Part shown: in pieces, positions 24,136 to 51,400 of the stretch
Layout of the letters: each line of letters opens with the position of its first letter
How positions within the stretch are numbered: position 1 is the first letter of the stretch
Source: Scleroderma bovista
Lineage: Eukaryota > Basidiomycota > Agaricomycetes > Boletales > Sclerodermataceae
Direction of reading: 5' to 3'
DNA length: 64,000 nucleotides
Assembly (NCBI GenBank): GCA_037178675.1
Contig: JAYMGJ010000242.1
Span: 1-64,000, forward strand
Made by a program: the position numbers and the translations under genes
The notes under the pieces: generated by a model
What the model was told of the DNA's origin: nothing
The model's input: only the letters and a program-made list of their open reading frames with translations
Database searches by the model: none

Positions 24136-27100
24136 TCACTTGGCTGCAGCATCATGGATAAGGGGTTCCGATTGTTGGGCAATGTCGTCTGGGTGGGTGC
24201 CAGAGAGATCTGCAGATTGATTGGCACCTCCTTCGACGCTGGAGGCAGCCACAGGTCCAGGAGGCATTGCATGGAGGTACTGAGCCTCACGGTAGACTCC
24301 CGGAATTGGCTCGTGGCTGCCGCTAGGTTTGGCATATCCAACAAGGTGTTGGCTGCGGAGAGGAAGCTGGGGATTGGTGTAGTGTCTGCGTGCCATTGTT
24401 CCAGGTTGTTGATGCATTGTTGGATTATCGTTGGCATACATGTTCATGTACGGACGTGACGCGAACGGAGGCGGAAGGAGATACTGTGGGTGATAGCAGC
24501 TATACTGGCCATCTGGGGCTCTGCCCGAAGGGTCATACCATCCAGTATTGATGCCAAGATGGTATGGAACCCCGTCGTAGTTGAATCGACCATTGTCATT
24601 ATATACCAGATCCAGGAGTGGCTTGTGGATGCCTCGGCGTGCGGGATTGTCGTGTAGAAAACCCTCCCTATCCATTGGCATTTCATAGTGGCGGCGGGGG
24701 AGAGACGGGTGACCTGGTGCTCCTGGGGGGTTACCAACCAGGGAATCCTGGCCAGGTTCTATAGGACCCGAGCGAACGCCGATGTGACCTTCTTCGGCAG
24801 ATAGAAGCCTGCAGGAGGCTGGAGACATAAGGTCCTTCTCATCCGCCATGGATGTATAAGGATCTGGATAGATTCTTCGGCGAAGGTTGAATGCCGTGTC
24901 TGGATCACTGTTTGGTCCCGTGCCCCGTACTACTGGACGCGGCTTTGGTCGCCCGCCAGTCTCAAGGTAAGAATCTCGTGGGGGTTGATCTACCGGGGCG
25001 TTAGGAATCAGACAATCGGTAATGTCATCATATGGCACCATGACTCACATGGCGCAGGGTTGTTAACTGATTTTCCAAGACCGACTGCACCTTCTGTGGG
25101 CCCAGCCATGGCCTGAATGGTGGCGACTTCGGGTTGTGCATGCTGAGAGCCATGGGCTGTGGGTGAGGTGTGGATTAGCACATTGTTGAATACTAACATC
25201 GACTTACGCTCGTCGCGTTGAGGCTGGTCCATGTCCATTTCACACGGAGCTGGACCACATGGCGTGTCTACTTGTCAGGATCGGTTCTCCTCAACGATCT
25301 TACTAGGAGGTCCAGGGGTGCAGGGAACTAATGAGGAGGTAAGTCCAGACACTAGTATGTGCTACTTAGTGCGGAGAGTCAAGTCCAGGTCATATGGACG
25401 AAGTCCGGGCACTGGAGAAGCACTGGGAGCAAGTCCGGGTTTTGCGGAGTTAGTCTGGACCGCGGGAAAGTGGACCGGAGTAAAGCGCAGCTTGTCCGGA
25501 TGAAGGACATCCCAGAGGTGGGATAAGTCCTCAGGGGTCTAGTGTCGAGTCTGGGACAGAGTTGGCTTTTGCCCTTGTGCAAGTAGGAGACTTGCTAGGA
25601 TCGGACATAGGACCAGGGGGACGAGATAGGACAGAGACCGGAGTTGGCCAGAGTTCAGGGGAACAGAGTGGAATTAGGAGAGCATGATGGGTAGTACAGA
25701 GGGAGGAGTATCTTAGTCGAGATTTGATCTAAGGACTACTAGGCCGGAGTACGGTAGTTTATATAGGAGTGAAAACTAAGGTGAGTATATACAGTGACAA
25801 GTAAACACCTTAATAGTGGGACAAGGGATGGAGCAGAAGCAGACAGGAAAATAAAGCAGGTACAGGAAAATAAAGCAGGGACAGGAAAATAAGCCGGAGC
25901 GGAAGCAGAAATGGGGAACTAGAGTTACAGGGACGACGGAGGAAAAGCAGGGACAGTGAAGTAAAGGGAACTAGGTCGGAAGAGGACAGGTAAGGGTCGG
26001 AGGTGGACTTAACTAATGTTAAGTCCGGAGCGATGTCCAGGACCGGAGGAAGTGGGACCGGAGGAAGTGCACGAGCGGAGGGAGTGTGCAGGTGGAGGAA
26101 GGGCGGAGTAGCCGGAGGAAGGTCCGGAGTTGGACATAGAAATGTCCTAGGCCATTGGTGGACCTGACAAAGGGAGTGGAGTGGAACAGGAGCAGATCTG
26201 ACCCGGAGTTGGATGTACCATCCAGAGTTGGGCTACGTTGCAGACGAGACCAAGGGAGTGGCCGGACTGAAACCGGAGTAGCGACTAGTGGTAGGTACAG
26301 GTTCGACATGGCGGAGTTAGACCGCAGATCTGTCTAGAGGGAGACAGGGGTTAGTCCTGAGGTGGAGATGGACACAGTGACCGGAGTTGAGCTGGAGTGC
26401 AGCTATGGGGCTGGAGATGGCCGGACTAGATCCGGAGTTGCATCTATGCCTAAGGAGAGGTCAAGCGGGCCAGGGTTAGACCGGAGTTCCGACTGGAAAA
26501 GTATGGATATGACACTACTATACAGTACATTAGGTCAATGATCTTTTGTACACAGTGGGGGCTTACCTTCCATGCGATGAGGACCTTGCACTGGTATGAT
26601 GGTCATGGCTTCATTCCGTACACGCCTAGGCTCATCTGGAGGACACAGAGATTGCATTCCCAATAAGTGTACATTAGTATAGTGCGGAATACTTGCAATA
26701 ACTTACGTTTGTCGCCTTGAGGCTGTTCCTTATCCATTTCACGCGGCGCTGGGTCGCATTCCATGTCTACAACACAGCACGTAGGTCGTTGATTTTTGTA
26801 CTTAGTGAGGACTTACTGTCTGTGCGATGAGGATCATCCAAGGGTAGACGTTCACTGGATGCACACTCGGACTCATCCCGAGGGCGCAGAGATTGCATTT
26901 CTATGAAGTATAGATTAATATACTGAGGTTAACACAGGCAGAGACCTACGTTCGTCGCGCTGGGGCTGGTTTGTATTGATATCAGGTCGAGTTGAGTCGC
27001 GTGGCGTCTCTACAGAGAAATACATTAGGCGGATGCTTATTTGTAAGAAGTGACGACTCACCTTTCGAGTGACGAGAATTCTCAAGGGGTAGGCCGGTTG

Positions 27101-28522
27101 TGACCTCTTGAGGGTGCACAGACAGAGGGCGCACCACTTGCATCGCTGCAGAGGGTCCACTGAGCTAATCAGTTCAGATTTCATGTGTAGTCACTTACGT
27201 GGGTTGAGACGCCCTCCTTCGGAGGCTCGTGGCATATGAGATAAATGCGGAGGGTCCACTAATTGCGTCACTGTAGAGGGCTCACCGAGGTGACCAACCC
27301 GGATTTAGTTTGTGACAACTTACGCGCATCAACACGAGGCTCTTCGCAGGCTCGTGGCACCTTAGATGACTGCGGCAGTGGCGTCGCTACAGAGGGTCCA
27401 CCACTGAGCGGACCAACTCAGATTTTATGTGCGACGACTTACCCGCGTCGACATGAGGCTCTTCAGTGGCTTGTGGCACCTGAGATGAATGTGGAGGGTG
27501 TGGTTCTCGCGTCGCTGCAGAGGGTCCACTGAGCCGATAACCAGGGATTTTATGTGAGACGACCTACATGCATCGAGACAACCGTCCTCAGAGCCTCGTG
27601 GTAATGAATGGGGAGGGTGTTGTAGTTGCGCCGCTGCAGAGGCTCCAATGAACTAACAAACACGGATTTTATGTGTGACAACTTACGCATGTCTTCAGAG
27701 GCTCGCAGCATCTTAGATAAATGTGTCCATATGCATGGCAGACCTACCTTCGTTGACACGACCAAGAGTTCCCGACATATGACCCTCACGGCTGTTGGTT
27801 TTTGGCTCATTGTCACCAGAAGAGTCGATGTCAAGCTGCGAGGTAAATTGAAACCTAGCTTTTCTGGTCTGCGAGGATCGTTGCATGCCCTCAGAGAGTT
27901 CCCTGGTGCTCTTATCCACCGAGGTTGCTGCTCTTTTCACAGCACGCGATGAGTCCTGGCAGGTTGCCTTGCGCTTGCGTGTATATGGAACTTGCTCCTC
28001 TGAAGGACGGGCGTTGGAGCTGCCGTCGATGAGTGCCCCATGTTTGTCACCGGCATTTATTTCTTCCAGGATGTAGTCGGAATCAGAGGTGTCCTGAATG
28101 GTGATGATGCTTGGTTCTCCCGTCGTCACCTTGCCTGGCCTTTTAGTAACAACGACCTCTACCTTCTTTCGCCTGAATGTGGATTTTGGCAGCCTAATCA
28201 GTGGCGGCGAGTCCTTCTCTTCCTCTACGTTGGTTACAGATCCTTTCGCTCCTTTCTGCTTCGTAGAGCGGAGATGCTTTGGTGCAGGCGAAGGCGACAA
28301 GTCAAAAATATCTTCGATGTCACTGCCAGGGTCTGTCTTCGAAGCAGGAGGCTTCCCCCCCCCTACCTGCTTCCTAATCCGCGTCTTGGCGGCATTGGGT
28401 AGGCGCGCTGGCCCTTCATAATCTACCTTGCTGTTGAAGAAAACCCTTTTGCCTCTCAACGAGTTTGAATCAGATAATGGTGGGGCGCCATGGATGACTG
28501 GAAACTTGGATGCAAGGAGGTC
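24136..28522 (-). CDS. Unrecognised multi-exon gene with mini-exon array
   Basis: Not recognised. The first large exon (28522 to about 27760) encodes a basic/acidic low-complexity protein. It has a KQVGGGKPP segment, a DIEDIFDL acidic patch and several KR clusters suggestive of nuclear location. Many short exons follow (27710-25130), each with a GTAAGT-like donor. The last exon (25041-24136) is Pro/Tyr/His-rich, with repeated PYxLGIN/PQYLLPPP-like stretches, and ends at the stop at 24136. An AG precedes 28522, so the true start may lie further upstream, or this could be the 3' half of the gene at 28563-31395. Expression is unknown; splicing of the middle is inferred only from consensus borders. 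It could equally be a decaying gene. Confidence 0.4.
25275..26510 (-). repeat. Diverged relative of the Gypsy B LTR
   Basis: A G- and A-rich stretch full of GTCCGGA/ACCGGAG words. At about 25770-25880 it shares GTGACAAGTAAACA..CTTAATAG and repeated GGAAAATAAA units with the Gypsy B LTR (compare 47028-47110). The ends are not clear. It lies in an apparent intron region of the minus-strand gene. Confidence 0.5.
27190..27710 (-). repeat. Tandem mini-exon/intron units, about 120 bp
   Basis: Five units have donors (plus-strand CTTACG/CTTACC/CCTACA) at about 27192, 27319, 27439, 27559 and 27684, spaced 120-127 bp. On the minus strand each unit holds an intron starting GTAAGTYGTCRCA. A short exon of about 36 nt follows, reading like VPQATEEPHVDA. 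Larger related exon pairs recur at 25204, 26701 and 26946 (QPQRDER just before the donor). Confidence 0.6.
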
Positions 28523-28562: not shown

Positions 28563-31395
28563 TCAACACTTGCTCTTTTTGTTCGGCATTGACTTGAAAT
28601 GTAGCCTGTAAGGGCCGGTGTCACGGAGGGCAGCGATGACCTGTGCGGATTCCAAAATGGTCAGGTCTGATACTCCCTTAGGTTTGCTATGCGAAGCACG
28701 CTCTTGTCCAGGGAATAGCACTGCATCTGGCCAATGCATGCAGACAAGTGCATGCTGACCCAGCTTCCCCGAGGCCCACGTGTGGCCATGACCCTCTGAG
28801 ATTTCATCAGCAGCATGTTCTTGACTTTGAGTAATATAACAAACCAATATGTGAAGTGAGAAGCTTCTTCACAAGCTTGTGGTCCTCTCGCTCATCGCTC
28901 GCGTTATCCGGAGTATGGTCACCACTATCTAATGTGAGGTCGACGACGTCAGGTCCCACCTCACTGCGGTCCTTCGCTTTACCCTTAGTGTCCGACTTGT
29001 CTTGGTCGAACGACTCTGTAACGCACGCAAGAGACGACCGGTTGCTGACAAGACCACAGCAATGTGAGAACGTGAAACAGAAGTGGATCGTAGAGCATAC
29101 TATATGTGTGCTTTGAAGTGACCAATTATGGCATCCGAGTCAGCGCGACAACGCTCCATGAAAAACTATGTATGCCCAGTTGTGTCAGTAAATCGTAAGC
29201 AGATGAATTAAATACTTACATCTTCTGCACCAGAGGTGGTGTATGAATATCCCAACGAGGCATCTTGATTGACGATGCTTCCTGCCATTACGAATGCTGC
29301 TTCAATGCCATGCACTTTCGACAGAGCAGAGAACTGGAGTCATGTTAGGTGTGCTCCCTTTGCTATTGCATAAAAGACTCACCGACTGGGTAAATCTTTT
29401 CGCCGATTTATGGAACATTTGTTGCCGTTGGCCGAGCGTCTTGCTAGCTTCGGTGTACTGTGTACTCTCCTCGAACTTTGTAAGAATTTTCTGCCAGGTT
29501 CCAGGGTACTCCTTCTTGAACAGCTCATAGCACTGTTTGCGGACTGTGACCGCTGAGACATCATTAGCATATAGTGATACATCCCTTGCTCCTGTGCCCT
29601 TACATTTCGTATCGATAGTAGCATCCTGCACTACAGTTTTCCGGAAGCGATCAAGTTTGGCCTCAGTGTTCTGGGAAAAGTACTTGGCATACTTGTTCCA
29701 GTCGTTTGCTGAGTTCAATCGTGAGTATTGCTTCACAAAGCGATCAATTAACTGTTGAGGTGGTTGGCCAGAACGTACCGCGAGGTCGGTAAGGTATGTA
29801 GTGATATGATCGAGTCCCTCTTGAACGATATCTAGAACAGCGTCGGACGGTCTTCCAACCGTGCATGGACTGTCCTTGCTTTCGTCTAAATTAGCCCAAC
29901 TATCGTCACTGGGAGGCAAGGGAACTGCATCCCCAGATGGAGTATACAAAATCTAACAATGCAGAATCAGATAGTCACTTAGGAATCACCACAACCAGGT
30001 GGAATAACATGCCTCTCGAGCTTGAGCGGCTTGAGCCGGTTCCAAGCCTAGGGGACTGGGTGTATCAGCCACCAGCTTGGCATCTGAAGGCAGAGTCAGC
30101 TCAAGCTGCATGGCAGACGGGTTGTCCAGGGACAAAACAGTTGATCCCTTCGCCAAAGCTGGTAATTCATGACATTGCAGAATGACAGATGGACATACCT
30201 CATTGGTGCGGTTGGGAGGCTCGGAGGTTGGAGCGGACATACCACTGATATCGTTGGTGGGACGAACATGAGGCTCTCGCGAGGGTTGGCGGTTGGCTGG
30301 CTGGACTTCTGGCACACCTGCAGGCCCTCGCGAGGCTCCTCGCACGGGAAGTGGGACCTCTGACGAGGCTCCCCGACTTAGTATCACGCAGAACGGAGAA
30401 CATCCAAACACCTACCGGATACACTAGCGGTTGGAATAGTGGGAGCCACGTCATCGAGCGGCCCAGAGACCTTCCCTTTGGGTGTTGGTGACCCTTGAGA
30501 GCCTAATGAAATGAGTATGGTCAGCAAATAAGAACGGCGACCGAAGAGAGACAACCATACAAGTGGTGACAGAATTTCTTCTGGATGGTGTCTGCAAAAA
30601 ATCAACCACCACAGAATCCTCTCCAGATTGAAATAGTTCAGACGCGCATCTAATCTCGGGTTCCTCAAGGAACGGATTGACTTCGACAGATTTGCTGGGG
30701 TCTTCTGTACTAGAGGTAGACGGTGCAGCCTGGCGAGTACGACAAACTTGCACCTTGGATATGAGACCCCCATCACGGTCTGTGGCTTTGATGGAAGTGC
30801 GAAGGCGAGTGGGCGTCAGGACAGGAGGCGCTGTTGTATCTGGACGCCTCCCGCCGCCCACTTGTATTTCGATATAATCTGCATCTAAGTCGGACATGTT
30901 GCACTGCTGAGCGCTATGGTTGGAACGGTGGTCTAAGTCTGACAGTGTTCAGCAAGCAACTCAAGCACTTACATTGGCGTGCGTCCTGGGAAATCAACGG
31001 AGTGGATGGCAACGACGTTCTGATTAAATTGTGTTTATGTTTTGATACAAAAAAATCTGGACTAACCTTTGAGGAAATGAGATGTTCGTTGATCGCGAAC
31101 CCAATTGCTTCCATCCCAAACTGATTTGTGACCTATATGTTGTTAATGAATCAACAGAGTGGATGGCAACGACGTTCTGATTAAAATGTGTTTATGTTTT
31201 GATACAAAGAAATCTGGACTAACCTTTGAGGAAATGAGATGTTCGTTGATCGCGAACCCAATTGCTCCCACCCCAAACCAATTTGTGTCCTATATGTTGC
31301 TAATGAAGGAACGCTAACCAATGCGTCATAGCGATCTTGATTAGAGATAGGTCACCTACCTTGAGTGGGATGTTGAACGAGGATGGTGTTGCCAT
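28563..31395 (-). CDS. Unrecognised multi-exon gene
   Basis: Not recognised; probably a fungal lineage-specific family. The supported 5' exons are 31395-31360 (MATPSSFNIPLK), 31289-31224 and 31132-31067 (two near-identical exons ending NEHLISSK), 30985-30973, 30932-30561 and 30502-30416. They join in phase; the fifth holds DADYIEIQVGGGRRPD. Further exons are an Ala/Leu-rich part near 30157-30005, a helical domain at 29955-29390 (NDWNKYAKYF; KKEYPGTWQKI) and smaller exons. The last exon (HALVCMHWPDAVLFPG, ending PNKKSKC) stops at 28563. The downstream borders are less sure. A degraded copy of the repeated exon occurs at about 39910-39975 on the plus strand, so the family is multi-copy. Confidence 0.5.
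30991..31308 (-). repeat. Tandem duplication of one exon and its intron
   Basis: Two adjacent copies of about 157 bp (30991-31147 and 31148-31308) are roughly 90% alike. Each contains a 66-nt exon with AG acceptor and GTTAGT donor. Both copies keep the frame. Confidence 0.8.
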
Positions 31396-31766
31396 AGTAT
31401 AGAGGGGTTAGGACGCGAAAGGACGAAGCAGGACGAGCCTTAGATCCCGAGATATCGACCTATCAGTCCCAAACTCCACCCAAATGCGAAAATGCGAATA
31501 TCTCCGCAACCGCTGGACCAATCGCGATGACCCAGGCACCATTCGAAAGCCCTCGACGAGTAGATCTTGATTCCCGAAAAGCGAAAGATCCGGCGCAAAA
31601 GGGAGCGAGATATGCGCCAAACTCGAGGGGGGCAGGAGGAGAAGATGCTGAAAACTCAAGGGAAAATGATGGAAACTTCAAAGGAGTGACTGTAGTTGGT
31701 TAAGAGGGACCTAGAAAGAGGATAGGGAGTGCCAAGACACAGAAACCCCTCGCGGTGGGCTCCAGT
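31396..31766. other. Intergenic upstream of the minus-strand gene
   Basis: No gene is supported. 31488-31560 (GAAAATGCGAATATCTCCG, GAAAGCCCTC) resembles the reverse complement of 45100-45230, so it is a dispersed sequence. Confidence 0.4.
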
Positions 31767-32035
31767 TGTAGGGGGGGGTTGGGTGTTGCTGCTGCCTCAG
31801 GTGAGGCACGCTCGACCCAGGGGCTTCTGGAGGTCTGGCAGAGCTCCCAGGGACTGGGGAAACTAGAGGAAGTAGGGAGAGTAGAGGTGTTCAGTCACTC
31901 CAGGACTGAGATCAAACATATACAGAGGAAAGAGGGAAGTTTGCTTAGTAAGCTAAGTACAAGCCTACATAGCTAAGGTAAGAGTCCAGTATCAGTACTA
32001 CCAATTCTACACCTAGAGACAGGACTGTCTCTACA
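31767..32035 (+). repeat. Solo LTR2 at left inversion breakpoint
   Basis: 269 bp, TGTAGG...TCTACA. It has an inverted partner at 45577-45844 with about four differences. The end palindrome TAGAGACAGGACTGTCTCTA is notable. Its left flank (CAGT) does not match its right flank (GCGT), as expected if an inversion passed through it. Confidence 0.85.
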
Positions 32036-32039
32036 GCGT

Positions 32040-32634
32040 TACGCGGTACATTGTAGATTTCAACTGCCTCGCTTCGCAGGTCCAGGACTATGGGGATGGC
32101 GCACTCTGTCGCCTGTTTTACTCCGGTCTCCCGGACCGTCTCAAGGATGAGATCGCTCGAGTCGGGAAGCCCCTGACTCTGAATGGGCTGAGAGCCCTTT
32201 GTCAAGAGATCGACGCGCGCTATTGGGAGCGCAAAGACGAGATCTCCCGTACGACGAAGAGCCAGCCTACCTCGTCCACCCCCAAGCCCTCCAACTCTGG
32301 AGGCAACACCCCCAAGCCTGGTCAGGCCAAGACCGGCAACTCCCCCAGCTCCGCCAACACCTCTGGCTCGTCAAAGACGACCAGCAACCAGTCCTCGTCC
32401 GGCTCCAAACCGGACTTGACCAACAAGCTTGGTAAGGACGGGAAGCTGACTGCTGACGAGCGCAAAAGGCGGCTCGACAACAACCTCTGCATGTTCTGTG
32501 GAGGTACCGGACACTTCGCGGACAACTGTCCAAAGAAGTCTAAAAAGGCCAAGGCTCGTGCTGCGGCCGTCGCTGCTGAGTCCGGTAAGACGGACTCTAA
32601 CTCGGGTGCTAACTCCGAGTCAAAAAAAGAGTAA
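32040..32634 (+). pseudogene. Gypsy B Gag, C-terminal part
   Basis: A nucleocapsid-like part of Gag: a [16 protein letters not shown] segment, a Ser/Thr-rich linker, and a CCHC knuckle [14 protein letters not shown] that binds RNA. It lacks its N-terminal half, which lies at 45845-46671 on the other strand. Across the solo LTR2 the codons join exactly (LYRV then TRYIVDFN) once the GCGT duplication is counted once. It ends at TAA 32632-32634, just after a seven-A run. Confidence 0.85.
32622..32628 (+). promoter_or_regulatory. Probable -1 frameshift site between gag and pol
   Basis: A AAAAAA run lies just before the gag stop codon. Slipping back one base enters the open frame that leads into protease. 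This fits the X XXY YYZ heptamer rule and the usual gag/pol arrangement of Gypsy elements. Confidence 0.5.
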
Positions 32635-32635
32635 G

Positions 32636-35600
32636 CAGCTCCCAGCCCTCCGCACAACCGGCGAGCTGCGTTGACTCCAGAAGTGCACCCAAGGAGGCCC
32701 GCCTCAACGTGTCAGCTCTTTTCGACCCAAACTCTCTTATGCCTCATGTTTCCCTTTTATCTCTTGATATACCTAAAATCCGCGCTCTTGTGGACTCCGG
32801 TTCCACGCATTGTTTTGTAGATTTACAATTCGCACACAAAAACAACCTTACATCCTACTCCGTCTCTCCTATCCAACTCCGGTTATTCGACGGTACATCA
32901 AACTATGTAATTACTCAAGCTATCGATTTATCAGTGCAGTTCCCCGCATCCGGTGATGTCACCCCCATGACTTTTTATCTCGCTCCGTTGGATTCTGAAT
33001 GCTCGATTGTCCTTGGACATAACTGGCTCACCCGCTATAATCCGTTGATTGACTGGGTATTGAGTAGTTTAACATTCCGGACTCTTGCAGGAAGTTTGCC
33101 AGCGCCCCCATCGACTCCCTCTCTGGTTCTGCCTGGAAACTCTGACTCCGGCCTCTCCGGCCAGTCTACCCCAGGCCTCGTGCCATCTGTCGACACTCCG
33201 GTTTGCAACCCTCCGCTTATCTCTCTAATCAACGCAGCCGCATTCGTGCGTGCATGCAGTTTGGAAGGATCCACGAAGTACCAACTCCAGCTGCGTCCTG
33301 CGGACTCAGCAAAAGCCTGGTCTTCTTCTATATCAACTCCACCGGACTTGGACATCATCCCTCCGGAATATCGCGACTATGCGGACGTGTTCAGCAAGGC
33401 GAAAGCCTCTGAACTTCCCCCGCATCGCGACTACGATTTGAAGATTGAGCTCGAAGAAGGTACCTCACCACCTTTGGGAACCCTATACTCACTGTCTCCG
33501 GTCGAGCTCTCCGCCCTCCGGACATTTATCGATGAGAATCTCAATACAGGTTTCATCCGCCCTACCGCTTCCTCTCACGCTGCTCCGGTCCTCTTCGTCA
33601 AGAAGAAGGACGGCTCCCTCCGCCTATGCGTTGATTTTAGAGGCCTTAACAAAATCACCAAAAAGGATCGCTATCCACTCCCCCTTATCTCCGACCTATT
33701 GGACTCACCCAGCCGTGCTAAAATCTATTCCAAGATTGACCTCCGGCACGCGTACCACCTGGTCCGGATTGCTCCGGGCGACGAATGGAAGACCGCTTTC
33801 CGTACGCGCTACGGGTCCTACGAGTGGTTAGTAATGCCCTTTGGCCTCACTAACGCCCCTGCAGCATTCCAGCGCTTTGTCAACACCATCTTTGCTGACA
33901 TGCTGGATGTCTGTGTCGTCGTGTACCTCGACGACATCCTCATCTACTCCGAGGATATGGAGTCTCACCAGCAGCATGTCCGGGAGGTACTCCGGCGACT
34001 CCGGTTACATGGCCTCTTCGCCAAACCGGAGAAGTGCGAGTTCCACTCGGACTCAGTGGAATACCTTGGCTACCGTCTATCCCCTGAAGGTCTGACTATG
34101 TCTCCGGACAAAATACAAACCATCTCCGATTGGCCTGAACCTTGTAAGGTAAAGGACATCCAATCCTTCTTGGGATTCGCCAACTTCTACCGGCGTTTCA
34201 TTTTCAATTACTCCGACATTGTGGTTCCTCTTACCTGGCTCACCCGGAAAGATGCTCCTTGGATCTTCTCCGAGGACTGTCGACGCACTTTCAATGCTCT
34301 CAAGCACGCCTTCACTACCGCGCCCATACTCACTCATTTCATTCCGGACACCCCTATCATCATGGAAACGGACGCCTCTGACTACGCTGTCGCTGGCATC
34401 CTGTCTATTACCTGCGCAGACGGAGAGATTCGTCCGGTCACTTTCTACTCCCGGACCTTGACTGCTCCGGAGCTGAACTATGATACCCACGATAAGGAAC
34501 TCCTTGCCATCTTTGAGGCATTCCGGAACTGGCGCCATTACCTTGAAGGTTCCGCCTCTCCTATTGACGTCGTCACTGACCACAAAAATCTAGAGTATTT
34601 CTCTACCTCGAAAGTCCTCTCCCGCCGGCAAGCCCGGTGGTCCGAGTTCCTCTCTCAGTTTAACCTTGTCATTCGTTTCCGTCCCGGGAAACTCGGTGCC
34701 ACGCCGGACGCTCTCACTAGACGATGGGACGTCTACCCCAAAGAGGGGGATAGTGGCTACACCCGTGTTAACCCACAAAATCTCAGGCCGGTGTTCACTC
34801 AAGACCAACTGACTAACTCCCTTCGCGCAACCATTTTAGAGTTCCCTGTCCTTCGTCGAGCAGTCGCCATCATGGACGTGGAAACACTCCACAACAACAT
34901 CTTATCTGCTCTCCCCTCAGATCCCATTGCCCAGATCCACCTCTCAGACTCACCGGACTCTCGTTGGTCCACTGATGAGGCAGGTTTCCTCCGCCTAGAT
35001 GGTCGCATCTATGTACCGGACCTGGACGGTCTCCGCCTCCGGGTACTCCGGTATCACCATGATCACCCACTCTCTGGCCACTTTGGGCAAAACCGGACTT
35101 TGGAACTAATCCGGCGTAAGTATACCTGGTCTGGTCTTAGGACCTTCGTCAAAGACTACGTCCGGTCATGCACCTCCTGCGCTCGAGCTAAGACACCGCG
35201 CCATCGACCCTATGGGTTACTAAAACAGCTTCCTGTCCCGGAAAGACCTTGGAACTCCATATCCATGGACTTTATTGAGCAACTCCCTGGCTCAACTGGA
35301 TTCACAGCTATCCTGGTCGTAGTAGACAGGCTCTCTAAACAAGCCGTCTTCATCCCTACCCACGACACCATCACTAGCCCAGAGCTCGTGAAGCTCTTCC
35401 TTCTTCATGTATTCTCCAAGCACGGTATTCCCGCCCACGTCACTTCAGATCGCGGTACAGAGTTTGTCTCGCACTTCTTCCGGTCACTCGGAAAAGCCCT
35501 CGACATGCGCCTCCACTTCACCTCCGGTTACCACCCGGAGGGCGATGGCCAGACAGAGCGGTCCAACCAGACACTCGAACAATATCTCCGTGTCTACTGC

Positions 35601-36348
35601 AATTATCAGCAGGACAACTGGGCGGACCTACTCCCACTGGCGGAGTTCGCTTACAACAACGCACCTAGTGCTACCACCGGAGTCTCACCATTCTTCGCCA
35701 ATAAAGGTTATCATCCCAGCATCTCCGTCTACCCAGAACGCGATATGACCTCTGCACGGGCTCGTGATTACATGGTCGACCTCGAGTCGCTGCATCAATA
35801 TCTTCGAGAAGAAATGGCCAACGCGCAACTTCGCTACCAAGGTCCTGGCTGATGCCAAACGTACTCCGGCACCGGACTTCAAAGTAGGCGACCAAGTATA
35901 CGTCAAAGCCAAATACTTCTGGTCTACTCGACCATCTAAAAAGCTATCAGAGAAGAACCTGGGGCCCTACTCTATCATCGCGCAAGTAGGCTCCCTCTCT
36001 TTTACGCTCCGTCTTCCAGATTCCATGCGTGCCGTTCATCCCGTCTTCCACGTCTCCCAACTCGAACCGGCCACACCCAACACCATACCGGACCGGATAC
36101 AACCTCCTCCGCCACCGGTCGAAGTAGATGGTGAACCGGAGTTCAAGATCTCTGAGATCCTCGACTCCAAGGTTGACCATCGACGAAAATTGTGCAAGCT
36201 TTTGTACTTGGTACGTTGGTCCGGTTACGAAGGAACTGACGAAGAAACGTCATGGCTTCTCGCCACTGAACTTGGCAACGCTACGGAACTCTTAGAAGAT
36301 TACCATGTCCGGTATCCGGACAAACCCGGACCACTTGTGTCCATGTAG
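32636..36348 (+). pseudogene. Gypsy B Pol (protease, RT, RNase H, integrase, chromodomain)
   Basis: The pol frame is open from the slip site and has no ATG near its start, as expected for a frameshift product. Protease: RALVDSGSTHCF. RT: YLDD at about 33927. RNase H: METDASDYA at about 34363. Integrase: zinc site HPLSGHFG...CTSCA, D in SMDFIEQ, D in TSDRGTEF and E in GQTERSNQ. A single extra G at about 35842 (in CAAGGTCCTGG) ends the frame at 35852. The same protein continues in the next frame to 36348. That part holds the integrase C-terminal KVGDQVYVKAKYF stretch and a chromodomain (LLYLVRWSGYEGTDEETSW). All catalytic residues seen are intact, so the frameshift is the main lesion. Confidence 0.88.
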
Positions 36349-36512
36349 TATTACTCTCGCCTCCGTTTCCCTTATCTGTTTCTCTTATCTGTTTCCCCTA
36401 TCTGTTTCACTCTGTAATATCACTCACTCTCAAATCCAGCCATTTTTCTCTATAAACAAAAAAGTAAAACTAAATTACATTTTCTATTTACAAGGAGTCC
36501 GGACCGGACCAC

Positions 36513-37576
36513 CTACTCCGGCACACCGCTGCCAGGGTTCTCCTGCTCCTCATGGAGTCCCTGGACTTCTTGTTCGACCTCCTCCGGGTCGACCTCCGCC
36601 TTGCTGTCCTCCGACTCCTCGTCCTCGTCCCAGGGCGCCGTAAAGAAACGACACTCCTCGAGAAAAGTCTCGAGGCCGGCCGTCAACCGCTCATTTCCCC
36701 TTGCCACCGAGCGAGTGGCATCCGCGACCCGGCGCATCTGACCGGTCATCTCCTCCACCGCCCCGGTCAACCGGTCCAGTCGTTCCAAGAACGGCCCAGG
36801 GTCAAACCCAGACCGTTTCCCAGACGGCCCTGGCACTTCGACGATGTCGTCGTCGTCGTTGACGACCTTCGCCAGCTTCTTCTTCTTCCGCTTTTCACCG
36901 CCTCGCGGTGACGTCGCCACCTCCTTCTCCTTCGCCTTACCCTTGCCTTTGTCCACTACCGGACCGGGACCCCCCACCTCCGGCCACTCGCACTTCTCCT
37001 TGAGGCCGGCGCACTTCATGCACGCGCGCTGCTTGGGTTTTTCCGGGTCTCGTTCGCACTTGGCCTTGTGCTTCGCACAGCGAATGCACCTGCCAAAAAA
37101 ATTAATAAAGTAACAAGGGAATAAAATTTAAAAAAAAAAAAAAATACTTACCGGACATTGTCGCTCCGGTCTTCACTCGGACCCGCCTCCGGTTCCTCCC
37201 TTGCTCGCTTCTTCGACGCCTCCTGCGCCATCGCTCTCTGCCTCGCGGCGACCTCTGCAGCCCTCCGTTGCACCTCCACCCTGTCCTTCTCCGCCTGCTC
37301 CCGCGCTTGGCGTTCCGCCTCCGCCTTCGCTCTCTCCGCCTCCTCTCGTGCTCTCGCCTCCGCCTCCTCATGTGCTCGTCTCTCCGCCTCTTCCCTGCGC
37401 TGCTTCTCCTCCCTCTTCACTTGCTTGCGACGACGGCGCTCCTTCGCCTTGGCGTCGAGAACGTCGGACTCGTCCTCGCTACCGGACTGTAACTCCGGTG
37501 TTGGGGCCTTCATCCAATCCTTGGACTCAGTGGCAGCAGGGGCGGCGGGGCTGACGGACTTGGCAATGGCAGACAT
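36513..37576 (-). CDS. Antisense Zn2Cys6 / coiled-coil protein carried inside Gypsy B
   Basis: A two-exon gene on the strand opposite to pol, between pol and the 3' LTR. Exon 1 is 37576-37152, the intron 37151-37090 (GTAAGT...GGCAG, 62 nt), and exon 2 runs 37089 to the stop at 36513, giving about 333 residues. Residues 45-130 form a long charged helix rich in RRREEAERR-type repeats. Splicing then completes a cysteine pattern C-X2-C-X6-C-X11-C-X2-C-X6-C, the fungal Zn2Cys6 binuclear cluster spacing. A lysine-rich segment, a leucine-containing helix (FLERLDRLTGAVEEM) and an acidic tail follow. By family it would be a DNA-binding regulator in the nucleus; its target is unknown. The frame is undamaged although pol is not. 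Confidence 0.75.
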
Positions 37577-37736
37577 TTTCAGATAGCAGTAAATTGGGGG
37601 TAAAGGCAAAACCGGTCTGAGCTTTATAGATCCAGAATTCGTACTCAGACATTAACTCCGGACTCCGCATTGTCTTAGGCGACCACACGTCAGCCTCGTT
37701 GGGGCCTCATGGGTTCGGCCCCTAAAAGGGGGATAC

Positions 37737-38367
37737 TGTTACGACCATGCCCAACTCCGGGCCTTATCCGGTCACTCCGGTCGTATCGCAGCTCTACAGC
37801 TCTACTCCGGTCGCTCGTCTCCTACTCCGGTCGCGCTCACGCAGATAACCTTCCGCTAACTACGACCCTTGGTCTATACTCCATTCGCTCTTACTACACC
37901 TCGCCATCTACCCTGCCTTGACGTGAGTTCTCCGTGAACTCAATATATCCTATACCTTGTAGCTTTTTCACCGGACCTGATTTATTTTACCCGGTCCTGA
38001 CTTTATTTTCACCGGACCTGACCTAGTCCTAACTCCGGTCGTCCCTTGTCCGCTATTAGGTTGTTTACTTGTCACCGTATGTACTCGACCCTAGTTTCTA
38101 CTTAGTATAAGTACCCTCTAGTTTACCTTGTATACCTCAGTCTGAAATCATCTAAGTTACTACTCCTGTCCCCTTGTCTGTCTCCGTCTCCATCTCCACC
38201 TGACCGGAACCTACGCAAGGGATCAACGCTCGTTGTCCTTGTCGTTGAATCCAATCGGTTGCAACTCCGGCCCGGGCTAACCTCTGCCCAAACCTCTGAC
38301 CTCTGCCCTCGTCTGTTTTCATCCGGACTTGACCGGACTTCCTACCGGAGTAGACCCGGACTTGACA
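37737..38367 (+). repeat. Gypsy B 3' LTR
   Basis: 631 bp, TGTTACG...TTGACA. By eye it is identical to the inverted 5' LTR at 46739-47369 except for one base. TATAAGTA at about 38107 precedes CAGTCTGAAAT at about 38138, the likely transcript start, by about 30 bp. Confidence 0.95.
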
Positions 38368-38372
38368 CCGAT

Positions 38373-45576: not shown

Positions 45577-45844
45577 TGTAGAGACAGTCCTGTCTCTAGG
45601 TGTAGAATTGGTAGTACTGATACTGGACTCTTACCTTAGCTATGTAGGCTTGTACTTAGCATACTAAGCAACTTCCCTCTTTCCTCTGTATATGTTTGAT
45701 CTCAGTCCTGGAGTGACTGAACACCTCTACTCTCCCTACTTCCTCTAGTCTCCCCAGTCCCTGGGAGCTCTGCCAGACCTCCAGAAGCCCCTGGGTCGAG
45801 CGTGCCTCACCTGAGGCAGCAGCAACACCCAACCCCCCCCTACA
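45577..45844 (-). repeat. Solo LTR2 at right inversion breakpoint
   Basis: 268 bp, the inverted partner of 31767-32035 (about 98% alike). It sits inside the gag gene of Gypsy B. The GCGT next to gag-N matches the GCGT next to gag-C at 32036-32039. Confidence 0.88.
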
Positions 45845-46671
45845 ACGCGGTACAAGTCTTTCATCCGGAGATGCTCGAGCTGGTGCTCGGCATCAGCAAC
45901 TGGGTCGTGAGGACCGAAGGTACTCTGGAGTTCAGCAACAAAATGGACCCAGCTGTCCATCCAGCGTGGGCGGTCAGCCAGATTACCGGAGTTGAGAAGG
46001 TCCGGTTCGAACCATTCCAGCGTCATACCTTTAAGATAGGACTAGGCAAACGTTACCCTTGCTCTATCTTGCCAGAAGGCCTTGGCGCGATCCTGGAAAC
46101 ACAGTTCGCACTGGACCAAGAAGGTCCGGAGTTTCTTTGGATCCGTGCCATCAAAGGTGTCCGGTTCACGGACCTTGGCACGGGAGGAGGAGGAGGAGTC
46201 GTTGGAACGGCGGGAGGAGCGGGAGAGGCGGTTGACGGCGATGGCAAGATTGTGGAAGACAGCCAGGCTAGGGTCTAGTTCTTCCATGGCATCGAGAAAT
46301 TCGTTGTTGTTGTTGTTGTTGTTGTTGTCATCTCCGGGACCATCCTCAGGGCCGAACCATTGGAAACGACCGGGTTCGCGACGCTCCGGAGTGGAGTCGC
46401 GGCGGTAGGGAAACCTGTCACCAGAAACAGATTCATGGCGACCTAAGTCTGCAGAACCGCGAAGGCTCTGAGATGCAGCATCTTGACGCGGAGTCAAAGG
46501 TGCTGTGGGGTTTCGAGCTGTAAAGCTCCGGAATTGGCTTACAGAAGCCGGAGGTTGCCTGCGATTAGACAGGGCTTGCTGGGCGGCAGAAAGGTGAAGG
46601 TCGTCTACTGCACCTGCTTCTTCAGCGAGTGCGGCAGTAGTACGAGCGCGAGAGCGCGTAGTCATGGTCAT
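45845..46671 (-). pseudogene. Gypsy B Gag, N-terminal part
   Basis: From ATG 46671 (MTTRSRART): a low-complexity start, an Asn run from GTT/AAC repeats at about 46305-46328, then the Gag core (EPDTFDGTDPKKLRTFLVQCELCF, MTLEWFEPDLL, ELQSTFGPHDPVADAEHQLEHLRM). One in-frame TAG stands at 46042-46044, between VTFA and SYLKG. The frame runs to LYRV at the LTR2 border and continues in phase at 32036. Confidence 0.85.
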
Positions 46672-46722
46672 GAGGAATGAAACTAGTTTGCGTACGAGGT
46701 TTGTATAGTGAACCCACACAAG

Positions 46723-46738
46723 TGTGAGTCTGAAATAC
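46723..46738 (-). promoter_or_regulatory. Gypsy B self-priming site
   Basis: Directly after the 5' LTR the minus strand reads GTATTTCAGACTCACA. Its ATTTCAGACT is the exact complement of AGTCTGAAAT at the predicted transcript start inside the LTR. This matches the self-priming mechanism known for Tf1-type elements, rather than tRNA priming. Confidence 0.6.
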
Positions 46739-47369
46739 TGTCAAGTCCGGGTCTACTCCGGTAGGAAGTCCGGTCAAGTCCGGATGAAAACAGACGAGGG
46801 CAGAGGTCAGAGGTTTGGGCAGAGGTTAGCCCGGGCCGGAGTTGCAACCGATTGGATTCAACGACAAGGACAACGAGCGTTGATCCCTTGCGTAGGTTCC
46901 GGTCAGGTGGAGATGGAGACGGAGACAGACAAGGGGACAGGAGTAGTAACTTAGATGATTTCAGACTGAGGTATACAAGGTAAACTAGAGGGTACTTATA
47001 CTAAGTAGAAACTAGGGTCGAGTACATACGGTGACAAGTAAACAACTTAATAGCGGACAAGGGACGACCGGAGTTAGGACTAGGTCAGGTCCGGTGAAAA
47101 TAAAGTCAGGACCGGGTAAAATAAATCAGGTCCGGTGAAAAAGCTACAAGGTATAGGATATATTGAGTTCACGGAGAACTCACGTCAAGGCAGGGTAGAC
47201 GGCGAGGTGTAGTAAGAGCGAATGGAGTATAGACCAAGGGTCGTAGTTAGCGGAAGGTTATCTGCGTGAGCGCGACCGGAGTAGGAGACGAGCGACCGGA
47301 GTAGAGCTGTAGAGCTGCGATACGACCGGAGTGACCGGATAAGGCCCGGAGTTGGGCATGGTCGTAACA
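46739..47369 (-). repeat. Gypsy B 5' LTR
   Basis: 631 bp, identical by eye to 37737-38367 in reverse except one base (CAACTTAAT against CAACCTAAT). Confidence 0.95.
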
Positions 47370-47374
47370 ATCGG

Positions 47375-48451: not shown

Positions 48452-51400
48452 TTAAACAGGTTCTACAATGTGATGAATAAGGACTCGGAGGAAATGCCGA
48501 AAATGAATGATGTCATCCTCTTCGAAGGAAGTGACCTCGAAGCCCCTCAGAATAGCAGCCATTTGTGCCAAGGCCCACACGCCACAGTCATGTCCATTGG
48601 TTTGCCGTGGTTCTATCTGTAATGGCAATTAGCACGCCATAAGTACAACGTTAATTCTCAAACCTACCAAGATGGGTCGGGCCACCCAATCACCGCGATC
48701 TCGGCGGCTAGTCCCCACTCTCCGAGTTGCGACCCTGGAGAAACGACAAATGAGTTGCATGATATCCTGTACACGTGTTAGAATGGGACTAGTTCACATA
48801 AGTGGCTAACCTTAACATCCTTCCTCCACGGCTGCTGTTCAGCCAGGCTGTCAAATAGCAGCAGCAGCCTCGAAGGAAAATAAATCGCGCAAAGCACCCA
48901 GTGTCCCATGGGCAACGAACAATGGATTGGGAGGACCCAGATAGGCTTCTCCCAGAAGCGAGTCCACGACAGATTACGCCAGAGCGTATCGTCATCGACG
49001 TTGTAGCGGATATGGGGAAGGTCATGGGTCGAAAGAACAGCACAGGGAGACGCGAAAGGTAGGAACGCTGAATAGAGGAGGGCAGCACAGCCATTGATGC
49101 AGGCGTCATTGAGGCAGGCCTGTGGGGACGTGTCAAGTCCGGGTCTACTCCGGTAGGAGGTCCGGTCAAGTCCGGACGAGCGCGGACGAAGGGAGGGGGC
49201 AGAGGGCTGGACGAGGGATTAGTCCAGCCGGAGTTGGTGACCGCTTGGATTCAACGACAAGGACGACGTGCATTGATCCCTTGCGTAGGTTCCGGTCAAG
49301 GTGATAGGGACGGAGACGGAGACGGAGACAGACAGAGACTGGAGTAGTGACTAAGTTGATTTCAGACTGAGGTATACAGGACGGAGTACAGGGTACTTAT
49401 ACTACGGAGAACTAGGGTCGAGTATTTACGGTGACAAGTAAACAGCCCAAAGGGCGGACAAGGGATAACCGGAGAAAGTACTAGGTCAGGTCCGATGAAA
49501 ATAAAGTCAGGTCCGGGTAAAATAAATCAGGTCCGGTGAAAATAACACAAGGCAGGAGATATAACAAGTACACGGAGAACTCACGACCAAGCAGGGTTGA
49601 CGGCGAGGTGTGGTAATGAACGAATAGAGCATAGACCAAGGGTCGTGCTTAACGGAAGGTTATCTGCGTGAGCGCGACCGGAGTAACTGGTGGGCGACCG
49701 GAGTTGAGCTGTAAAGCTGCGAAGTGACCGGAGTGACCGGATAGGACCCGGAGTTGGACATGGTCGTAACAGGACGCCAGTATGTTGGTATCACTCGGGA
49801 GGAATGTCTGTCGAGGGAAGCCATCGACAGTCGGTCGTATTATGGTTGTCGTGGTAGCTGGCACATGCATGTCCTTCGCCATGTCAAATCCGCCATCGAT
49901 ATTGATTACCTGCCGAAGCCAGGTTAGGCGGGAATCGATAATACAATTCATCCTACCTCTGGAAGCTCCCAATTCATGGTTATTCTGGATGGTGTTTCAG
50001 CTTCAAGTTCGGGCTCGAACTCGTCCTGATCGTCAAAATGGGCCACTTCAAGAATGTCTGAAAGTGCGACCTGTTCAGGGTCGAGGGGAAGGTGCACGGG
50101 ATCGGTGCCTAGCGTGTCGGTGAGTTCCCACATCTCCTCGTCATCAATATCATCAATATGATCGTTGATAACGACCAGTACTAGCCACCAGAGGGAAGGC
50201 TGAGGGTTTCCCATGATAGTTTGTGCGACCTGGGTGGCAACTTCCGTCTGGTGTGCATAATGAGAGGGAGAACTTAAAGCGGTTGGCCATCGTTCCTGCA
50301 GCTCGGAAATGGTTTTGAGCCGTTGTCTCAGGATGAAATGATAGTTACTGTCTGAAAATAGTCAATTAAGAGACTTCTCATGGTAGCCAAACTCACTTTC
50401 AGATTGCCGTAATGCAACGTGAATGGCAGTGAGTTCGTGGCCAAACCAACGACACATATTATCAGCTTCTAAACCCAGACGACATTGTTCTTCTAGACAA
50501 CGTTCCGTCTTAATGAGAGCGCGGATACCATCTCGTACATCAGCGTCTTCGAGCCAGCGAGGGACCTCCCCCACAGAGGGAGTGATCCAGATGTCTTGCA
50601 TGAGTGTTGGGTCATTTCGTAAGTCGGTGAGTGTGGTGGGTAGTGGGGGAGGTAAAGGAATCACACAGGAGGGGTCGTAAAGTTGGGAAAGCTGTTCGCA
50701 GTAATGGTTGTATTTGCGAATGGCCGCTGTAAGTGCAGGCTGACGTTTCACGATCGCCTTCCGTGTCTGTTGGTGAAGCTTGGTACCTATGTAATAATGT
50801 CATGGATGGTGGGTTCTGTGAAGGGTGGCCGGGACGCACCTAGAGGCTTGTTTTTTCTGCCGACAGCACGGTCGAGCTTGTCCCACTCAAAAAAAGTGCC
50901 AACTGCCCTCTTGCGAATGTTTATCTTCAAGTCCCGAGCCATCAGCAGTATCTGCACAAAGTCGAGGCTGATGTTTTTAAGTTCTGGAAATTGATCATGC
51001 ATGTTTAGAGACGAATAGAGAGCCTCAGCTTTGGTCATAAGCCTCGCATGACTGCGCTCGAGGCTCGAGAGCGCTTCCATAATTCCAGGGGACGCATTGC
51101 CCTTCTCGATGGTCGTTCGCGCCAGCTGCAGCACCTTATTGCTGTTGTCCAAGTCGGCTTGCAGCATAAGCACAGTGTCAAGCTCTTTCTTGAGCTTGGC
51201 GGGCGCATCTAAGGATGTTCATTAATGGGAAGGGCATGATTGAAGTATAAGTACTTATGTGTTCTGACGGACAACTGCGTGGCTCGTTGTTCGGCCCACT
51301 GTTTCTGGAGTTCCGTAACGCTCATGCCGCAGCTGTCAAGGACTTCTTGTGCCACATATCCTTGATCACCTACGCCCTTTTTGAGGCGGCGTCTAAGCCA

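Follow-up and report, generated by a model that had tools for sequence, protein, structure and literature searches.

Accessory genes on the antisense strand of long terminal repeat (LTR) retrotransposons are already known, examples being those of Grande and Retand in plants and brtn in fungi. Here, we describe a predicted spliced antisense gene of a Ty3/Gypsy element in a 64,000-nucleotide (nt) stretch of the basidiomycete Scleroderma bovista (assembly GCA_037178675.1, contig JAYMGJ010000242.1, positions 1 to 64,000), referred to below as the window. In plants, antisense accessory open reading frames of Gypsy elements include gene23 of maize Grande and those of rice RIRE2 and Silene Retand, the latter with TRP28 (PMC7264820, PMC11963269). 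They are known from several plant families, with no role assigned to them in the available text, and in Grande, gene23 is driven by its own promoter and encodes a nuclear protein (PMC7264820). Similar to the genes of Grande, RIRE2, and Retand, the gene in the window is antisense, lies between pol and the 3' LTR, and is conserved in its family, and DNA binding is predicted for TRP28 as it is here. However, TRP28 belongs to another protein family, reported in the accessible literature only from flowering plants, and the Retand lineage is a non-chromovirus lineage; moreover, the accessible parts of the plant descriptions (PMC7264820, PMC11963269) mention neither an intron nor an element-wide motif, both of which are found here.

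In fungi, brtn is an antisense gene of the Boty-like Gypsy elements of Botrytis cinerea (PMC8365987, PMC4227169). To judge from the available parts of these sources, the two elements are alike in being fungal chromodomain Gypsy elements with an additional antisense gene. The host of brtn is an ascomycete, unlike S. bovista, and brtn is reportedly the subject of a paper on Boty-like elements by Zhao et al. from 2011. HBZ of human T-cell leukemia virus type 1 (HTLV-1) has been named as an antisense regulatory protein (PMC11963269), with the HTLV antisense promoter located in the LTR (PMC7264820). The protein described here may likewise be a nuclear antisense regulatory protein of a retroelement. 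HBZ, however, is a spliced bZIP protein with its promoter in the 3' LTR, whereas the protein here has a zinc cluster, and its gene has a TATA box that lies outside the LTR.

The nearest well-studied likeness in working is offered by the anti-silencing protein VANC of the Arabidopsis VANDAL elements, for which, in the available text, protein and motif coevolve, binding and demethylation were demonstrated by experiment, and the motif lies for the most part in non-coding DNA and has spread through tandem repeats (PMC5735166). The system described here would resemble VANC in that a transposon-encoded protein is accompanied by a short motif which has accumulated in its own family and differs between families. 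VANDAL elements are DNA transposons, however, whereas the carrier here is a Gypsy element with a spliced antisense gene known from sequence alone, and the resemblance would be one of working only and not of membership. Within the accessible open-licence PMC literature, no antisense zinc-cluster gene with a matching motif was found. We lean, if only modestly, toward the view that this Zn2Cys6-like antisense protein binds the CGG-type motif of its own subfamily and thereby recognizes and regulates the copies that bear it.

The antisense gene and its chromovirus host

The original prediction, made from the window alone, was that a two-exon frame antisense to pol encodes a complete six-cysteine cluster only once a 62-nt intron is removed (junction 37152/37089). 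Both points hold, as the coordinates are exact and the spliced frame is open for 333 amino acids without the stop and contains RCIRCAKHKAKCERDPEKPKQRACMKCAGLKEKCEW with the predicted spacing. The gene is composed as follows:

37576-37152, minus strand: exon 1 (425 nt), with the N-terminus MSAIAKS... and a long charged helix or coil
37151-37090, minus strand: intron (62 nt, phase 2, GTAAGT...GGCAG), ending just 5' of the first cysteine codon
37089-36513, minus strand: exon 2 (577 nt), with the zinc cluster, a basic linker with TSPRGGEKRK, a long helix, an acidic tail, and the stop
36990-37088, minus strand: six-cysteine cluster C-X2-C-X6-C-X11-C-X2-C-X6-C, from the spliced translation and conservation
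37623-37628, minus strand: TATAAA box of the gene, 52 nt 5' of the ATG and outside the LTR

Copies of the gene were sought in 51.8 Mb of genome sequence (850 contigs), where 40 of 224 candidates from a DNA search, 150 of 303 from an exon 2 protein search, and 150 of 620 on a further list were scored. The intron is found at the identical site in all 40 scored DNA copies, with a length of 48 to 62 nt, a GTAAGT donor in 37 copies (GTAAGC in 2 and GTTATT in 1), and an AG acceptor throughout. Its length falls into all three classes modulo 3 (17/12/11 copies), whereas the length modulo 3 is kept for exon 1 in 35 and for exon 2 in 32 of the 40 copies; without splicing, the frame runs into an intronic stop in 39 of them. 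The exact six-cysteine spacing is preserved in 37 copies, and 20 retain an intact spliced frame, the remaining 20 having stops or frameshifts or matching only in part.

Codon change was measured among the 20 intact copies, leaving out the 20 that are broken or match only in part. Variable columns at codon positions 1, 2, and 3 number 81, 86, and 165 of 333 each, third positions thus being about twice as variable as first and second positions, and the ratio of nonsynonymous to synonymous change (dN/dS, NG86) is 0.196, with values of 0.183 for exon 1, 0.144 for the zinc cluster, and 0.224 for the tail. Alternative frames of the same region give 1.2 to 1.6, and the opposite-strand frame with common third positions gives 0.32. 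Five copies in which both frames were usable gave 0.218 for the accessory gene and 0.103 for pol. Given the intron in all 40 scored copies, an intact frame in 20 of them, and a dN/dS of about 0.20 among the latter, we take the frame to be a conserved gene of the element and not a chance frame, with a coding capacity and splicing that are supported by conservation. Recurrence of the frame in related elements and purifying rather than neutral codon change, on both of which the original prediction depended, were therefore found. Furthermore, the gene appears to have a core promoter of its own: in all 21 copies examined, TATAAA is located at -52 or -57 from the ATG, and it is embedded in an invariant block, GGATCTATAAAG, outside the LTR.

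By its domain content, the carrier is a chromovirus, a Ty3/Gypsy LTR retrotransposon with SH3_Tf2-1 and a chromodomain. Complete copies measure about 7.9 kb from LTR to LTR, with the antisense gene between pol and the polypurine tract. Near full-length LTR pairs were seen at 14 of 20 loci examined, 11 of these 14 having a 5-bp target duplication by eye; LTR pair identity reaches 99.4%, and some insertions therefore look recent. It is of note that elements with paired LTRs and target duplications keep the intron, which fits the proposal that an intron can survive retrotransposition when the gene is antisense to the genomic RNA. An open pol frame of 3,732 to 3,753 nt is found in 6 of 20 other copies examined. 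In all 15 copies in which it can be read, the primer-binding site ATTTCAGACT, which follows the 5' LTR, is exactly complementary to AGTCTGAAAT in the 3' LTR, and AGTCTGAAAT lies about 30 bp after a TATA-like TATAAG in the four copies printed. We take this arrangement to resemble that of self-primed elements such as Tf1.

That a Gypsy element carries the gene was borne out by its neighbors: 116 of the 150 scored exon 2 matches lie tail-to-tail with the chromodomain end of pol (median gap, 172 bp), and for the other 34, not all of which were inspected, no listed pol match lies nearby in another arrangement. Seen from pol, the antisense gene follows 123 of the 150 listed pol ends. The 36 typed pol matches included two (C448 and C555) that were already paired, leaving 34 unpaired and then 27 remaining; among 12 of these 27 that were fetched, pol is followed in 9 by a remnant or a diverged form of the gene, 1 has just the gene belonging to an inverted copy next to it, and 2 are truncated. 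Most of the listed copies have the placement known from Grande and Retand, antisense and between pol and the 3' LTR. The original prediction had also considered capture of a host gene. A stand-alone host gene as the source of the antisense gene was therefore sought, and none was clearly stand-alone among the listed loci that were checked. Five of the six outlying gene matches (L048 to L053) have a family pol or LTR in the fetched stretch; L048 has neither, and its stretch ends with its contig.

The zinc-cluster protein and CGG-type words

The Zn2Cys6 binuclear cluster (PF00172) has the pattern C-X2-C-X6-C-X5-12-C-X2-C-X6-8-C, which the window protein satisfies exactly. However, its score with the Pfam model Zn_clus is 14.1 to 14.3 bits, below the gathering score of 21. 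Of the original identification as a Zn2Cys6 regulator, the cysteine spacing stands; because the score lies below the cut-off, the family name stands on the spacing and a weak structural match, and we call the protein only Zn2Cys6-like. Scores elsewhere are 14.0 bits in subfamily B, 15.2 in C, and none in D, and 11.3 to 11.4 or none in named relatives. Similar to Gal4, Put3, and Leu3, the protein has the six-cysteine spacing, two short predicted helices, and a helix after the linker. Unlike in these proteins, the Pfam score is subthreshold, the cluster lies mid-protein behind a long charged stretch, a Pfam search found no further domain, and the first loop is longer in subfamilies C and D. A sequence search of the PDB gave no zinc-cluster match but designed coiled coils and others (best E value, 0.03). 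Among named proteins, the closest belong to Scleroderma citrinum, Melanogaster broomeanus, and Astraeus odoratus, in keeping with a host among the Boletales, and relatives are frequent in JGI and ENA sources (66, 148, and 553 matches in separate searches). A scan of viral contigs found no relative, and none of 21 six-frame Zn_clus matches in the genome coincides with the listed exon 2 matches.

The proteins of three further subfamilies, B, C, and D, are about 32 to 45% like the window protein (subfamily A) and retain the six cysteines; these and the TSPR-x-GEK block are invariant across the aligned A to D sequences. Exon 2 of subfamily B (L049 and L050) is 42 to 44% identical to that of the window and 56 to 58% identical to the Scleroderma protein; the intron has, by eye, the position and phase of the window gene, and the gene adjoins pol. 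In subfamilies C (L062 and L063) and D (L068), an antisense six-cysteine protein is likewise encoded behind pol. Between A and C, exon 2 is about 36% identical and pol 77 to 80%. Taken together, the gene is old and fast-evolving.

CGG is the half-site of Zn2Cys6 proteins, whose cluster binds CGG-type DNA with two zinc ions, and as with Gal4, Put3, and Leu3 this half-site is present in the DNA words enriched here. The window LTR has 16 CCGG in 631 bp versus 2.8 expected from shuffles (1.3 to 2.5 per kb in the rest of the window, as sampled), and its strongest 6-mer is ACCGGA, with 10 occurrences versus 0.4 expected. Words in pol were tested with amino acids and codon usage held constant. Of three A pol copies tested, two have ACCGGA as their leading 6-mer, and in the remaining one it ranks second (observed/expected: 18/3.5, 24/5.6, and 16/4.2); it is also enriched in all 10 A copies, among 20 examined, that have an open pol frame of more than 900 amino acids (12 to 24 versus 2.9 to 5.9). 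CCGG is up and CCGA is down in A pol, whereas in the one C pol tested, CCGA is up in each third and CCGG is down (7 versus 20.4 expected), beyond codon-usage controls. As for the LTRs, those of C favor ACCGA and CCGATC, those of B favor CCGGA among 5-mers, and the D LTR part favors CGGAG. The base after CCG is G in A (69%) and B (62%), A in C (63%), and T or C (36% each) in D, with a nearly even distribution in window positions 1 to 30900. CGG or CCG forms part of the main enriched words, which differ where the proteins are most unlike, and a family-specific short motif, as in the case of VANC, has accumulated in the element, with exceptions in some B and C lists.

In an alignment with the C pol, 1 of 61 CCGG sites of an A pol (L009) is kept as CCGG versus 53 of 188 other NCGN words, and 22 of the 61 sites match the position of C's own word to within one base. 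The overlap expected is 9.5 ± 2.5 when C codons are shuffled and 5.2 ± 2.1 (maximum, 13) when sites are shifted. Six further A copies gave 2 to 3 CCGG kept and 15 to 21 overlaps among 49 to 66 sites. Elsewhere, a CGG-type word is on top in 2 of 82 tiles, and the two tiles with the strongest CGG signal fall within a diverged relative of the element LTR at 25201-26460. This LTR-like stretch, of the same superfamily, contains CCGGA 15 times in one 630-bp tile. No CGG-type bias was found in a copia-type gag, the kinase frame of the window, or another window frame, although in the kinase frame an unrelated word reaches a z score of 4.5. CCGG sites show a 10.5-bp phasing (P of 0.0084 pooled and 0.012 for the LTR only), an exploratory value with the period chosen after looking.

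The window copy and its surroundings

The window copy is split, its 3' part being located at 31765-38372 on the plus strand and its 5' LTR and gag start at 45577-47374, inverted and 7.2 kb away. The parts are as follows:

32017-32634, plus strand: 3' part of gag with a zinc knuckle (20.5 bits versus a cut-off of 20.8)
32613-35852, plus strand: pol with protease, reverse transcriptase, RNase H, and integrase, the frame being broken near its 3' end
35749-36348, plus strand: 3' part of pol in another frame, with SH3_Tf2-1 and chromodomain, convergent with the antisense gene and ending about 165 bp short of its stop
37724-37736, plus strand: polypurine tract region AAAAGGGGGATAC, directly 5' of the 3' LTR, a block that recurs in other copies
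37737-38367, plus strand: 3' LTR (631 bp, TGTTACGACC...TTGACA), with 16 CCGG and 10 ACCGGA/TCCGGT
38368-38372, plus strand: 5-bp target duplication CCGAT, by eye; identical bases flank the inverted 5' LTR at 47370-47374
45577-46738, minus strand: 5' untranslated region and gag start, inverted
46729-46738, minus strand: primer-binding site
46739-47369, minus strand: 5' LTR, inverted relative to the 3' part and 99.7% identical to the 3' LTR

The predicted frameshift in pol is real, and both SH3_Tf2-1 and Chromo fall in the second frame; together with RVT_1, RT_RNaseH, Integrase_H2C2, and rve, they exceed the Pfam cut-offs. About 270 bp of gag is present at both breakpoints, the end of the 45577-46738 piece repeating 31765-32035 with 98.9% identity, and the split reflects either an inversion or an assembly error.

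Nearby, an LTR-like stretch at 49130-49772, possibly a solo LTR, is about 83% identical to the element LTR, and a tandem pair of a 157-bp unit with 94% identity (30992-31307) closely precedes the element. An 85-nt repeat is present in four imperfect copies at 27116-27688 with a spacing of 119 to 244 bp, and the frame at 41675-42817 matches the fungal protein kinase family PF17667 (28.2 bits versus a cut-off of 24.1). At locus L067, a 389-amino-acid frame lies near a 1,280-amino-acid pol family and antisense to that pol, possibly as part of a neighboring element; we take it to read like a copia-type gag.

Proposed function and alternatives

The antisense frame is a long-established accessory gene of a self-primed chromovirus family. 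We propose that a TATA promoter of its own, situated between the 3' LTR and the coding region, drives its expression and that the transcript is spliced once. Its product would be a nuclear protein of Zn2Cys6-like type, combining the zinc cluster with a long helix that is likely a coiled coil, and would bind a short CGG-containing motif accumulated along the LTRs and the coding sequence of the element. Binding would mark copies of the protein's own subfamily, with activation or de-silencing being more likely than repression, and joint change of protein and motif would separate the subfamilies into distinct systems, as with VANC of VANDAL. The sequence itself shows the gene, its splicing signature, purifying selection, its placement within the element, its occurrence in four subfamilies, and a motif enrichment that is subfamily-specific; expression, nuclear location, binding to the motif, and the sign of regulation are what we infer. 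The original prediction had considered control of the element by antisense RNA or by LTR binding, and control via LTR binding is now better motivated, given how densely CGG-type words occur in the LTRs and in pol. To the more specific form of this idea, in which the protein reads a CGG-type code and de-silences or activates its bearers, with protein and code switching together (ACCGGA in A, CCGA in C, and CGGA in D), we give a chance that falls a little short of even.

Several observations weigh against the binding proposal. On the side of the protein, the zinc-cluster score is under the Pfam cut-off in all members tested, the first loop of the C and D clusters (X8 and X9) is longer than in classical Zn2Cys6 proteins and outside the pattern, and no activation domain was found in the protein. 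On the side of the motif, the C preference in pol is known from one C pol, and one of two C LTRs has AACCGG as its top 6-mer (4/0.3) and AGCGC as its top 5-mer. For one of two B LTRs, CAGG and AATAAA top other lists, the B pol parts disagree on CCGG (23/11.4 in L049 and 4/3.6 in L050), and CCGGA is common to A and B although their proteins are only 42 to 45% alike. The comparison frames of the pol test were too short (372 and 834 nt), and the 834-nt one is not pol. The motif is also present in coding pol beyond codon usage, whereas that of VANC is mainly non-coding in the available text (PMC5735166). Finally, a test of aligned A LTRs gave no sign of selection on CCGG after insertion, CpGs inside CCGG being kept no better than others (0.868 of 16 versus 0.821 of 31; P = 0.48).

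This equal CpG retention also fits the view that gene and motif are unrelated, the protein having some other task and the motif having arisen as a by-product through codon context, mutation bias, or a past life in another host, as do the word in the unrelated host kinase frame and the non-CGG words that top some B and C LTR lists. We consider it unlikely, however, since such a by-product would have to produce opposite preferences in A and C within one genome, in each third of pol tested, and in-place switching at 22 of 61 sites, under amino-acid and codon-usage controls. A protein that binds the element might instead act as a repressor or copy-number limiter: the antisense position, the TATA box, and the zinc cluster suit either sign of regulation, and convergent transcription alone could yield double-stranded RNA. 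But a purely repressing gene should vanish from the fittest copies, and the at least 150 exon 2 copies, the four subfamilies, and purifying selection where measured are unlike strict copy control, so that this alternative, too, has a minor claim.

Rather less probable is a role in replication, with the protein coating or packaging element cDNA or RNA or tethering the integration complex and the carpet of motifs serving as a loading signal. It would explain why the motif is spread over LTRs and coding DNA alike, more than a role confined to the promoter would require, and would suit the basic linker and long helix, but the gag zinc knuckle, just under its cut-off, and the pol chromodomain could already do these jobs. 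The antisense RNA itself as the functional product, through RNA interference or transcriptional interference and with an incidental open frame, is compatible with a gene convergent with pol and about 165 bp from it in the window copy; with codons under purifying selection, six cysteines in 37 of 40 copies, and exon but not intron lengths mostly kept modulo 3, it is very improbable, and we reject it on this codon and indel evidence. As to a chance frame opposite a GC-rich stretch, long frames do occur on both strands there, but the copies, the intron, the codon pattern, and the subfamilies refute it, and its probability is next to nil.

In the preferred reading, the protein binds the motif of its own subfamily, which would point to a selfish element able to recognize and regulate its own DNA. 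An antisense accessory gene here comes with an explicit DNA word as its candidate target, which differs between subfamilies and occurs at high density in the element coding for the protein. If this is true, some Boletales proteins annotated as "Zn(2)-C6 fungal-type," several of them in Scleroderma citrinum, might be transposon genes and not host regulators, and sequence-specific self-regulation of the kind found in one plant transposon group would have arisen independently in fungal retrotransposons.
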